In this document: one piece after another, positions 31,926-55,509 of the stretch | Layout: each line of letters opens with the position of its first letter | Position numbering within the stretch: the stretch's first letter is position 1 | NCBI GenBank assembly: GCA_013289695.1 | Contig: JABCZK010000001.1 | Coordinates: forward strand, 1-64,000 | Direction: 5' to 3' | Source of the DNA: Acidobacteriota bacterium | Lineage (GTDB): Bacteria; Acidobacteriota; Terriglobia; Acidiferrales; UBA7541 | DNA: 64,000 bases | Notes under the pieces: generated by a model | Seen by the model: only the letters and a program-made list of their open reading frames with translations | Databases searched by the model: none | Told to the model about the DNA's origin: nothing | Program-made: the position numbers and the translations under genes

Positions 31926-31971
31926 TTGTACGAATTCGTACAAATTAGTAGAATTGTACGAAATCGTGCAA
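31926..31971. promoter_or_regulatory. Paired 18-bp palindromes upstream of the SatD-like gene
   Basis: Site 1 is TTGTACGAATTCGTACAA (31926-31943), a perfect palindrome. Site 2 is TTGTACGAAATCGTGCAA (31954-31971). They are separated by 10 bases and repeat every 28 bases. Site 2 ends right at the ribosome site, 11 nt before ATG 31982. A second pair with the same geometry precedes the next gene. The arrangement suggests operators bound by a dimeric or tetrameric repressor. Confidence 0.8.
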
Positions 31972-31981
31972 GGTGGGAAAA

Positions 31982-32626
31982 ATGAAGCAGGACCGGTACG
32001 CAGTGTTGATCGCGGATGTGGTGGGATCGAGGACGCGGCGGAATTTGCGGGCGGTGCTGGGGCAGCGACTGGAGATGGCGTCGCGCGCGCATTTGCGAGG
32101 GAAGTACATCCGGCTGCCGTACGCAATCACGGCGGGAGATGAGTTCCAAACGATCGTGCGATCCTATGCGCGGCTGCCGGAGCTGATTTTCGATTTGCGG
32201 GAGCGGCTGTGGCCATTGCGGCTGCGGATGGGGATCGGCATCGGGAAAGTGCCGGGGCGACTGCGCGCGCCAGTGAACCGGCTGGGAGGGGAGGCATTCC
32301 AGTTCGCACGCACGGCGCTGGAGGGGGTGAAGAGAGGCGAAGGAAATAAATTCAAGGTCTTGACGGGGTTTAAGACAAAGGATGCGGTGTTCGATTCGAC
32401 GGCCAATCTGATTTATGCTTTGCAGGATACGTTGCTGCTGAGGATTACGGAGAAGCAGTGGCAAACGATCGCTGTGTTTCGGAAGAATCGTCGGTTGCAG
32501 GCGACCGCGAAGGCGATGGGTTTGGATATGTCGACGGTGTCGCGGAATTTGAAGCGGGGATATTTCTGGCAAGTGGGACGGACGATGAAGGGGATGAAGA
32601 TATTGATGGAGGAACGCTGGGGGTAG
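31982..32626 (+). CDS. SatD family protein with cyclase-like motifs and a C-terminal HTH
   Basis: The product has 214 residues from ATG 31982, 5 nt after GGTGGG. It fits the SatD family, named for a secretion and acid-tolerance locus, of no known biochemical role. The N-terminal domain shows LIADVVGS (Asp12), AITAGDEFQTIV (Asp53) and LRMGIGIGKV, then LGGEAFQFARTALEG. These resemble, in order and spacing, the metal-binding and dimer motifs of class III nucleotide cyclases. The C-terminal part, RLQATAKAMGLDMSTVSRNL, reads as a helix-turn-helix. The working model is a nucleotide-responsive regulator that binds the flanking palindromes; none of this is demonstrated. The next gene starts 60 bp on. 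Confidence 0.8.
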   Translation: MKQDRYAVLIADVVGSRTRRNLRAVLGQRLEMASRAHLRGKYIRLPYAITAGDEFQTIVRSYARLPELIFDLRERLWPLRLRMGIGIGKVPGRLRAPVNRLGGEAFQFARTALEGVKRGEGNKFKVLTGFKTKDAVFDSTANLIYALQDTLLLRITEKQWQTIAVFRKNRRLQATAKAMGLDMSTVSRNLKRGYFWQVGRTMKGMKILMEERWG

Positions 32627-32627
32627 T

Positions 32628-32673
32628 TTGTACGAAAACGTGCAAGATAGGAAAGTTGCATAAAAACGTGCAA
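32628..32673. promoter_or_regulatory. Paired 18-bp palindromes upstream of the DUF3307 gene
   Basis: Site 3 is TTGTACGAAAACGTGCAA (32628-32645), and site 4 is TTGCATAAAAACGTGCAA (32656-32673), again with a 28-base repeat and a 10-base spacer. The pair begins 1 nt after the SatD-like stop codon and ends 13 nt before ATG 32687. Site 4 deviates in its left half. Sites 2 to 4 share the half-site CGTGCAAG. Confidence 0.8.
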
Positions 32674-32686
32674 GTGGCGGAATGAG

Positions 32687-33472
32687 ATGGAAATTCTGAC
32701 GAGAACGGTGCTGACGCTCTTGCTGGGGCATTTGCTGGCGGCTTTTGTGTTTCAGACAAACACGCTGGTGCAGCAGAAAAAGAGCGGGCGCGCAGCGGGA
32801 TATGTGAAGCACGGAGCGGTTTATTTTGCGTGCGCGGCGGTGTTGACGGGATTCTTTGTGCCAGCGATTGCGTATTCGTGGCGTTTTCTGGGGGTGCTGC
32901 TGGGATTGACGCTGCTGCACCTGGCGATTGACGGGAGCAGGATACGGTTGGCGCGGCGAACGCCGCTGGCGGAAGGGACTGCGGCATTCGCGGTGGATCA
33001 GGTGATGCATTTCTTGACGATTGTGGTGGCGGCGTGCTGGATCGCGCGCGTGGAGCCCTCCGGGATTTTGCTGCACGGTTTGAATCGGATGCAGACACCG
33101 AGCAATCGCGTGCTGTTGGCATTGGTGGTGTACGTGGGGGTGATTTTTGGCGGGGGATACTTGATCCGGTTCATGACCAGGCCGCTGCTGAAGCATCTGC
33201 AGACGGGCGAATCGCGAGCGGAATTGAGCAATGCGGGAATGTACATCGGGTGGTTGGAGCGGTTCCTGGTTATGACCGCTTTATTTCTGCATTCGCCGGC
33301 AACTGCGGGATTGATTCTGGCGGCGAAGTCAATCGCGCGGTATCCGGAGTTCAAACGCGAGCGGTTCGCAGAATATTTTTTGATTGGCACGCTTTTGAGC
33401 ATCTCGGCGGCGACGGCTGGGGGAGTGATCCTGCTCAAAGCATTTTATGGGAGTTCGGCATTGCCTCAATAG
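32687..33472 (+). CDS. DUF3307 family membrane protein
   Basis: The protein has 261 residues and about six to seven membrane segments. Conserved polar residues are embedded in them: LLLGHLLAAFVFQTN, VKHGAVYF, LLHLAIDGSR and VDQVMHFLTI. This His/Gln/Asp pattern is the DUF3307 signature. From memory, DUF3307 and SatD genes are often adjacent in other bacteria. The function is unknown; the intramembrane His and Asp residues could bind metal or carry protons. It is probably controlled with satD through the four palindromic sites. Confidence 0.85.
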   Translation: MEILTRTVLTLLLGHLLAAFVFQTNTLVQQKKSGRAAGYVKHGAVYFACAAVLTGFFVPAIAYSWRFLGVLLGLTLLHLAIDGSRIRLARRTPLAEGTAAFAVDQVMHFLTIVVAACWIARVEPSGILLHGLNRMQTPSNRVLLALVVYVGVIFGGGYLIRFMTRPLLKHLQTGESRAELSNAGMYIGWLERFLVMTALFLHSPATAGLILAAKSIARYPEFKRERFAEYFLIGTLLSISAATAGGVILLKAFYGSSALPQ

Positions 33473-53229: not shown

Positions 53230-55509
53230 CTAGTTGTCGACGACGAGTGTCATCGTAAAACCACGTGAGGCATTTTGTACAAAACCGTGCACAGTGAGCG
53301 TGAACGTGCCCGTTGGGGTGAAGGGGGTGACGCTGGCGGCTGAGTTGTAGCTATGGCAGCCGCCCAGAATGGCGCTAATCGCGATGGCCAGCGTGACCGC
53401 GAGAACTGGGACCACGCGCCGTAAACGCGTTTGACGGGCGAGCCAAACCAATATGCAGAATATTGCGGCAAGTAACAAAGCCGCCGCTAACTCACCTGCG
53501 TCTTGATTTCGCGGGCCGCGAGAACCTCCCGAGCCAGCAGATCCGCCGGATGTCGAGGAGAAAAACCCGGCGATGGCGCCCAGCCGTCTCGCCGCGGCAG
53601 CCGCAGCGGCGGGGAACTGTTTACCGCTGGTTGTTGTTGTTTGGAATGTGACATTGAAGGGTACCGCAGTTCCGGCGGTCACCGGCAACGTGAGCGTGTT
53701 GGCTAGCGGCAGGCTGACAGTGGTGCCGGCCGAAATGCCGCAAGTGGTGGGATTTCCTGCACTACCCGCCGGCGCGGAAGGCAGATTTGTCGGGCAGTTC
53801 AGCGTCACGGAACCGCTAAACGTGTCGTCGGGCACAATCTGCAGTTGAAACGTCGCGGGGAAGCCTTGCGAGATCGTAATTTCATACGGTGCGCCATTCG
53901 ATGGCGGCGGGCAGGTGAACGTCATAGTGGTCATGCACGTAATTTCGAAATCATCGGCGACACCGGTGGCTTCGGCAGAGAGCGGCGCTGTTGCGCCGGT
54001 ATAGTTGACCGTAAACGTCGCGCAGCGAATGTTCGACCCGGCTCCGCCAGGGCACCCGGAGACAACGTTTGCGGCAGGCGTAAATGCGACGTTATACGCG
54101 CAGCTGCCGTTCGCGGCCAGTGAAGTGGCGCAGGACGAATTGGCAATCGTGAAGTCGCTGGTGTTGCCCGCAGTGAAGCCCGCGGTGATTCCCGTGATCG
54201 CGCTGCTGTTGTTGTTGAATAGCTCGTAAGCGAGCGTCGGGCTGGTGCCGCCGATTACTTGGTCGCAAAATACCGTCGCCGTGGTACACGGTGTCGGCGG
54301 CAGCAGTGTCACACCGGTGGCCGGAACTCCCATCGCGTTGAATTTCAAAACTTCGCGCATACCCTGGTTGGCGACGAACAAGTCGCCGTGTGCGTCGAAG
54401 GAAATATTGCCAGGGGCGCTCAAGCCCCGTGCGGCGACAGTCAATTTGGACGAGATGGCATCGAGACGCAAAATCTGGTCGGAATTGCCCCCTGCCGCAG
54501 TGTAGGCGATGAATAGGTTGCCGCCGCCGTCCGCGGCTAGGCCCTGGGGCACGATGCGCGCACCGTTCGAGCGCGCGAGCGAGGCAGCGAACAGCGGCGC
54601 GGCGTTTACTCCGGCGCTGCGCAGCGCATGCGTTTGCGTGTTGATCGCCACGATCACGCCGGTGTCAGGCGAGGCGGCGAAAACAGTGTTGCCATCGGGC
54701 GTGACCGCGACGTCGGCGGGCGAAACCATGTGCGCGAGCACTTCTAGCTGGCCGGCTTTGGGAGAAGCGGCACCAAAGAGTTCAACGACCGCATTTGCGC
54801 CATGGTCCGCGATATATAAATTTCCAGCGCGATCGAGCGTCACTCCCAATGGCTCGGTGAGCTCGACGTTTTGGCGTGGTGCCCAACGTCCTGCGACGCT
54901 GCGGATGATGAACGGCTCACTGGTCGCGGCTCCGGCGACGGTGCGGACCGTGGCGTTGCCAGTGTCCGCAATGAAGAGCGTGCCGTCAGAAGCTACTGCG
55001 ACTTCGCTGCGCATGCTGAAGTCATTCAGGGCGAGATCGAGCTCGGCGGCACTGGCTGCGCCACCGTCGCCGATCGAGCCGACCGCGCCCACTCCGGCGG
55101 CTGTCGTGGCGAGGAGTTTGGCAGCATTGGCAGGCGCCACATTCGGCGCAGCGTGAACGATGTACGAAAACACCTGATCGGGGCGGTCAATATCAGTGAC
55201 GTACAACTGCGTAAATGACGCCGCCGCGCCGCTCGCGACCGCGGTCTCAGAAGGTTGCGCCGCAACTGCCAAGGTGCGGATGCCGACATTCGATGCCACC
55301 AGGGTCGCGGGCGCGCCGCTGGACGACACCGGATTGGCGGTTGACGCCGCCGCCGAAGAATTAGATCGTGCGGGCGCGGCGGTACTCGCGTGAATTTCGA
55401 TCTGGTTTTGGGCGTGGGAGCGATTCGCAGGGTCTCTAAGCGCCATGCCCAGCGCGAGCGCCGCAAATCCAATCACCACCAGCACACAGAGAATTCTCAG
55501 TAACCGCAC
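53230..55509 (-). CDS. Exported NHL-type propeller protein with C-terminal membrane anchor
   Basis: The protein has 759 residues from GTG 55509, 8 nt after a GAGGGG site. A hydrophobic N-terminus (about 1-25) anchors or exports it. The central region (about 100-400) reads as NHL-type propeller blades: AVASDGTLFIADTGNATVRT, VTLDRAGNLYIADHGANAVV and VTPDGNTVFAASPDTGVIVA. Beta-sandwich Ig-like domains follow (about 420-630). Near the C-terminus there are two hydrophobic stretches (LAAALLLAAIFCILVWLA and VVPVLAVTLAIAISAILGGC) and a short beta tail. It sits inside the phage-remnant region but is intact and host-like. Confidence 0.8.
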   Translation of the reverse strand: MRLLRILCVLVVIGFAALALGMALRDPANRSHAQNQIEIHASTAAPARSNSSAAASTANPVSSSGAPATLVASNVGIRTLAVAAQPSETAVASGAAASFTQLYVTDIDRPDQVFSYIVHAAPNVAPANAAKLLATTAAGVGAVGSIGDGGAASAAELDLALNDFSMRSEVAVASDGTLFIADTGNATVRTVAGAATSEPFIIRSVAGRWAPRQNVELTEPLGVTLDRAGNLYIADHGANAVVELFGAASPKAGQLEVLAHMVSPADVAVTPDGNTVFAASPDTGVIVAINTQTHALRSAGVNAAPLFAASLARSNGARIVPQGLAADGGGNLFIAYTAAGGNSDQILRLDAISSKLTVAARGLSAPGNISFDAHGDLFVANQGMREVLKFNAMGVPATGVTLLPPTPCTTATVFCDQVIGGTSPTLAYELFNNNSSAITGITAGFTAGNTSDFTIANSSCATSLAANGSCAYNVAFTPAANVVSGCPGGAGSNIRCATFTVNYTGATAPLSAEATGVADDFEITCMTTMTFTCPPPSNGAPYEITISQGFPATFQLQIVPDDTFSGSVTLNCPTNLPSAPAGSAGNPTTCGISAGTTVSLPLANTLTLPVTAGTAVPFNVTFQTTTTSGKQFPAAAAAAARRLGAIAGFFSSTSGGSAGSGGSRGPRNQDAGELAAALLLAAIFCILVWLARQTRLRRVVPVLAVTLAIAISAILGGCHSYNSAASVTPFTPTGTFTLTVHGFVQNASRGFTMTLVVDN

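Follow-up and report, generated by a model that had tools for sequence, protein, structure and literature searches.

Descriptions of SatD start from the streptococcal sat operon, the acid-tolerance operon after which the protein is named and whose SatD belongs to the same Pfam family as the protein described here. In the SatD and sat literature searched, which is thin in subscription journals and outside which earlier work may exist, no mechanism is given for SatD and no operator, DNA-binding assay or structure was found. One table in a study of Streptococcus suis names satD a DNA-binding protein, and that study reports a small RNA that binds satD mRNA in gel retardation, as a direct target (PMC12005413); SatD may therefore be under RNA control there, by another route than the one considered below. 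The closest relatives in architecture are the PucR/CdaR-type regulators, such as MabR (Rv2242, PDB 9f80) and BAD_0249 (PDB 3onq), which, like SatD, carry a palm/GGDEF-like domain and a C-terminal helix-turn-helix (HTH). MabR is reported to form dimers and tetramers, and its GGDEF-like domain to have lost the motif, reading HGTWL instead (PMC11617747). Related palm domains occur in the class III nucleotidyl cyclases (Rv1900c, 1ybt/1ybu; Ma1120) and in GTP cyclohydrolase III (2qv6), from which SatD differs in that its palm domain is fused to an HTH.

The satD gene considered here is located on the forward strand at 31982..32626 of a 64,000-nucleotide stretch of an Acidobacteriota genome (contig JABCZK010000001.1, hereafter the window). 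Its product scores 34.5 bits against the SatD family PF16264 in a Pfam scan (curated cut-off 29) and belongs to that family; it consists of a palm-fold (nucleotidyl-cyclase-like) domain and a C-terminal HTH with helices at residues 172-179 and 183-192. Foldseek and VIA matches of the AF2 model (pLDDT 94.2) to solved palm domains assign the N-terminal domain to the nucleotidyl-cyclase/palm fold; the matches cover this domain only, reach TM-scores of 0.30-0.45 when normalised by query length, and include 3onq (E 5.7e-5) and 9f80 (E 3.3e-4). Unlike the PucR-type regulators, SatD is accompanied by a recurrent membrane partner, and the window SatD has no match to the PucR GGDEF-like (PF17853) or HTH (PF13556) models at E up to 1, bearing in mind that HMMER filtering discards most hits with E beyond about 0.1. 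A phage or virus origin was rejected, the window SatD being unmatched in 50,697 phage records and none being confirmed in viral contigs (one peptide pattern); a defence system was likewise rejected, with PADLOC returning only weak matches of the HTH region to CARF models (E 0.005 and 0.0068).

Unlike MabR, in which the motif is described as lost, SatD retains GDEF and both metal-binding aspartates: D12 is kept in 126 of 127 aligned SatDs and D53 in 127 of 129, and D12 together with D or E at position 53 in 126 of 127. Arg110 is found in 113 of 131. Since the modelled cyclase fold keeps both metal ligands, the signal to which SatD responds may be a nucleotide. Position 106, which we take to be that of the class III cyclase transition-state Asn after placing the motif by eye, is Phe, Leu, Trp or Tyr in 129 of 131 sequences, and cyclase activity of SatD is therefore doubtful.

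Four palindromes surround this gene, none of them assigned to a strand. Operator 1 (31926..31943, TTGTACGAATTCGTACAA) is the only perfect palindrome among them, and the TTGTAC of its left arm (31926-31931) can be read as a -35 element; operator 2 (31954..31971, TTGTACGAAATCGTGCAA) lies over the expected transcription start. Operator 3 (32628..32645, TTGTACGAAAACGTGCAA) starts 1 nt past the satD stop codon (32624-32626), and operator 4 (32656..32673, TTGCATAAAAACGTGCAA) lies just 5' of the start of the partner gene. An earlier sequence-only reading had described two pairs with one 28-bp period and 10-bp spacers, the second pair beginning 1 nt after the stop, and the coordinates bear this out. 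Its statement that each pair ends 11-13 nt before the next ATG is nearly right: the distance is 13 nt from site 4 to the ATG at 32687, and 10 nt, outside that range, from site 2 to the ATG at 31982. With up to three mismatches, the window gives six matching rows against 0.04 expected from shuffles; five of them are the four sites, site 1 matching on both strands, and the sixth is an isolated match at 53275. That one-mismatch site (53275-53292) is inside a 759-aa reading frame and probably due to chance. In the whole genome (4.5 Mb, 87.4% complete) a degenerate site pattern has four matches, all at the satD locus, and the exact twin pattern (two sites at a 28-bp period) occurs twice, both times at that locus, with no other exact pair. 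A slightly different pattern with one mismatch finds 13 places, namely the four sites and nine isolated singles, the reversed control finding five. A global SatD regulon was rejected on the absence of a further exact pair and on these nine singles against five in the control.

The first pair coincides with what appears to be the satD promoter. Read by eye, TTGTAC, a 17-bp spacer and a probable -10 element TAGAAT (31949..31954, forward strand) form a sigma-70 type promoter with its start within site 2; the -10 element occupies the spacer of this pair, and its last base is the first base of site 2. Among the 29 usable loci of the same bacterial family (30 were listed, and L044, without the search motif, was left out of the site, promoter and junction counts), a TTGYAY arm is followed 16-18 bp downstream, mostly at 17 bp, by TAnnnT in 24; the -35/-10 pair is absent in five. 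The second pair is arranged differently. In the 20 family loci with a downstream pair, site 3 immediately follows the stop codon of satD in 15, the ATG of the partner falls inside site 4 in 18 (in the window it lies 13 nt beyond), and a -10-like hexamer is present in the spacer of two and absent from 18. An ordinary second promoter is thus unlikely here; the pair could act as a roadblock or provide fine control of partner expression.

In the family as a whole, SatD was found in 31 of 89 genomes and the twin pattern in 28, with both in 26: the pattern is present in 26 of the 31 SatD-bearing genomes but in 2 of the 58 others, and its reversed version in none of the 89. A pair 27-29 bp apart is located upstream of satD in 27 of the 29 usable loci, downstream pairs are found in 20, and of the 62 gaps from one site to the next, 59 measure exactly 28 bp. 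The palindromes and their spacing, on whose conservation upstream of orthologous genes the sequence-only reading had made its proposal depend, are thus clearly conserved. The exact twin pattern is missing from five genomes with SatD (G019, G004, G063, G082 and G025); in G025 the SatD copy (L013) is broken by two in-frame TGA codons. The two genomes with the pattern and without SatD are G075 (L163:1736) and G107 (L164:2239). In the 4.5 kb around each lone pattern no SatD was found; the patterns may be remnants or targets in trans.

Beyond the family, the layout was followed with an open-period scan of the 215 bp upstream of satD, in which palindromic windows of 20-21 bp with at least six of ten pairs were combined at periods of 20-45 bp; the scan was written after 28-bp pairs had been noticed in some of the loci. 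SatD matches (E up to 0.001) were present in 79 of 395 sampled genomes of Bacteroidota and in 69 of 398 of Bacillota. The 30 best-scoring loci of each of these two groups were taken, and all matches were used for Actinomycetota and Acidobacteriota; group names follow the named record used as the centre. Before counting, 15 loci were left out as overlapping window copies, duplicate stretches or the stop-broken G025 copy. The 144 loci submitted all had a SatD hit and came down to 131 distinct ones. Fragmentary hits (for example L084, whose stretch is overlong, L135 and L159) were kept among the 131, and none of them has 28 or 29 as its best period.

The best period is 28 bp in 43 loci and 29 bp in 35, together 78 of the 131 (128 scorable, three without a scorable pair), as against 84 of 1,225 scorable tiles among 1,343 real flanking control tiles, which are mostly coding sequence. 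In 1,310 shuffles of the upstream sequences, which preserve the composition of the upstream region, the best period is 28 in 41 cases and 29 in 59, not above other periods. Scores of 20 or more occur in 69 of the 131 loci (63 with a best period of 28/29) and in 69 of the 1,343 tiles (five at 28/29). Broken down by group, loci that peak at 28/29 make up 24 of 31 in the own family (with L046 counted provisionally), 8 of 12 other Acidobacteriota, 3 of 3 Rokubacteria, 10 of 31 Bacillota, 23 of 31 Bacteroidota, 10 of 20 Actinomycetota and 0 of 3 WOR-3. Outside the family this amounts to 54 of 100 loci or, with one locus per identity cluster, to 31 of 61, 13 of 29 and 10 of 21 at 50%, 40% and 35% identity. 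When the 63 best loci were extended by a looser rule, they showed two, three and four sites in 34, 24 and 5 cases; the array of Pedobacter sp. BMA (L054) has four sites at exactly 28 bp, and in Streptococcus agalactiae (L053) satD is preceded by a 28-bp pair. The three SatD matches in 72,556 plasmid records all come from haloarchaea, and each has a 29-bp pair. In two of these plasmids (L161, L162) one or two more related palindromic sites are located nearer the start codon than the pair. By comparison of these sequences, the layout is real and widespread, its spacing being kept in distant bacteria and archaea while the sequence of the sites changes. The unit that had been read as a SatD-DUF3307 pair in one genome is wider in layout, being shared by a large part of the SatD family in several phyla and in archaea.

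DUF3307 is not the constant part of the partner. In the window the membrane partner gene (32687..33472, forward strand) encodes an N-terminal DUF3307 domain, a member of PF11750 at 56.6 bits (cut-off 23), and a C-terminal constant motif region at residues 184-238 (33236..33400, forward strand), defined in alignments A5/A6 of 15 sequences; the AF2 model is all-helical (pLDDT 89). The motif comprises G184, E191, R192, K214, R218, E229, Y230, G234 and S238, in the form LER...AAK...R...EYxLxGT. Outside the family 90 downstream ORFs were found (L049-L154), and of the key residues G, E, K, R and G, four or all five are kept in 69 of the 76 aligned, a proportion favoured by the removal by eye of three near-duplicates (L111, L113, L114) and of eleven others that seemed spurious or whose locus had its partner in another place (L136, L138, L139, L144-L146, L152, L155-L158). 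PF11750 matches 29 of the same 76 at E up to 0.001. Many Bacteroidota partners, of 105-115 residues, contain little besides the motif. Judged from these alignments, the constant partner of SatD is the C-terminal membrane motif rather than DUF3307. The Pfam scan shows no model for this motif and none common to the partners without DUF3307, a domain that covers only the N-terminal half of those that have it; a PHROG membrane family also matches the N-terminal half. Foldseek found no PDB match for the partner at E up to 0.001, which does not in itself show a new fold. In six Bacillota loci (L124, L134, L136-L139) the partner is located 5' of satD; within 480 bp around the partner start, a 28-bp pair is located at the head of the operon in two of them (L124, L137) and none in the other four.

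The sequence of the sites seems to follow the recognition helix of SatD, including in haloarchaea and in paralogs of one genome. With classes picked by eye, a STVSRNLKRG helix goes with the half-site TTGYAC; QNVxKR with CACC in Pyrinomonadaceae, Rokubacteria, Bacillota and Actinomycetota; VSExL with TCGG/TTCGSC in Bacteroidota, Acidobacteriota and haloarchaea; and RQA(V/I)SK with CAACC in one haloarchaeon and in Acidobacteriota paralogs. L146 is a misfit, its QNISKQ helix occurring with GTTGAA, outside the CACC class. Mean operator similarity is 0.37 at helix identities below 0.30, 0.34 at 0.30-0.45, 0.60 at 0.45-0.60 (23 pairs) and 0.70 above (19 pairs), the 42 pairs of high helix identity coming from few loci and having higher N-domain identity as well. 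In the formal test, over 1,796 cross-group pairs from 69 loci, the correlation is weak, with a partial r of 0.09 that 2 of 300 within-group permutations attain. The best natural control for a site that follows its protein is provided by G066, G068 and G077, where the family-type SatD has TTGYAC arrays and a divergent second SatD (L165, L166 and L167) has its own 29-bp array with another half-site; the divergent copies of G066 and G068 are close relatives, and in G077 one of two divergent matches was read.

Taken together, we are confident, if short of certain, that SatD is a DNA-binding autoregulator on these arrays, binding as dimers, filling the sites cooperatively, repressing its promoter and responding through its palm domain to a nucleotide. 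The C-terminal HTH of a SatD dimer would bind each palindrome, and neighbouring dimers would be located 28-29 bp apart, or about 2.7 helical turns at 10.5 bp per turn. At this distance the dimers would probably touch, and a row of two to four sites could therefore be filled cooperatively. Pair 1 would overlay the satD promoter, with the -35 element in site 1, the -10 element in the spacer and the start in site 2, so that its filling would repress the operon; SatD is most likely an autorepressor. Pair 2, at the junction of satD and its partner, would block or tune transcription into the membrane gene. The palm-fold domain would probably bind a nucleotide and thereby alter DNA binding. Part of the sequence-only reading survives in this scheme: comparative evidence backs the SatD-family protein, through its C-terminal HTH, as the probable binder, and also cooperation suggested by the fixed spacing, autoregulation and the presence of another array by the partner gene. 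Its further suggestion, action at the level of RNA, does not.

Under that suggestion, the palindromes would fold into hairpins in the mRNA, both in its leader and between the two genes, acting by attenuation or by masking of the start codon. The location of the sites near gene starts, and of the partner ATG within site 4 in most family loci, would agree with this. However, asymmetric substitutions freely break the RNA pairs in the 107 family sites: the combinations that break pairing, C4/A15 (27 sites) and C6/A13 (30 sites), are as common as, or commoner than, those that keep a wobble pair, T4/G15 (24) and T6/G13 (9), and A7/C12 is present in 33. RNA pairing is therefore not the conserved property, and since site 1 holds the presumed -35 element it would not be transcribed from that promoter. 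The RNA leader hairpin was rejected on the substitutions, and we regard it as having scarcely any chance of being correct.

It could also be that SatD is an activator and that the upstream arrays recruit polymerase. One genus (g5) offers an arrangement of this kind, as in 9 of its 17 three-site loci a promoter-like pair starts in the last site, with two sites upstream (five have no such pair). In the window and in the other two-site family loci, however, the sites cover the presumed -35 element and the start, and pair 2 is located inside the operon, both of which fit repression better; activation is accordingly judged improbable. Alternatively, another transcription factor could bind the arrays with SatD as a mere neighbour, as the two genomes with a lone twin pattern might indicate. 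Against such a factor, the exact pairs of the own genome are confined to the satD locus, the twin pattern in the family accompanies SatD, divergent SatD paralogs have arrays with another half-site at nearly the same step, and SatD possesses an HTH whose helix classes, picked by eye, match the half-site classes. There is little probability that a different factor is responsible, and the protein that binds the arrays is very probably SatD itself.

More tentatively, and with the balance of our judgement against it as a complete account, SatD and the membrane partner might form a patchily spread cassette that crosses domains, in which a nucleotide is sensed or made, SatD winds round the DNA over two to four operators as a short filament of 8/3 turns per dimer, and a potentially harmful membrane protein is kept under antitoxin-like control. 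With such a role, satD would be essential where present yet missing from many strains. In one study satD is reported to be essential, yet present in only 178 of 249 Streptococcus pyogenes genomes (PMC11323703); an essential and yet accessory gene fits the control of a harmful partner, or a toxin-antitoxin module, as a hint only. For a family named after an acid-tolerance operon, an array whose spacing is fixed while its sequence changes offers a direct handle on the targets of SatD, on its DNA code and on its ligand. A transcription factor with a palm domain and intact metal ligands would join nucleotide signalling and gene control in one small protein.
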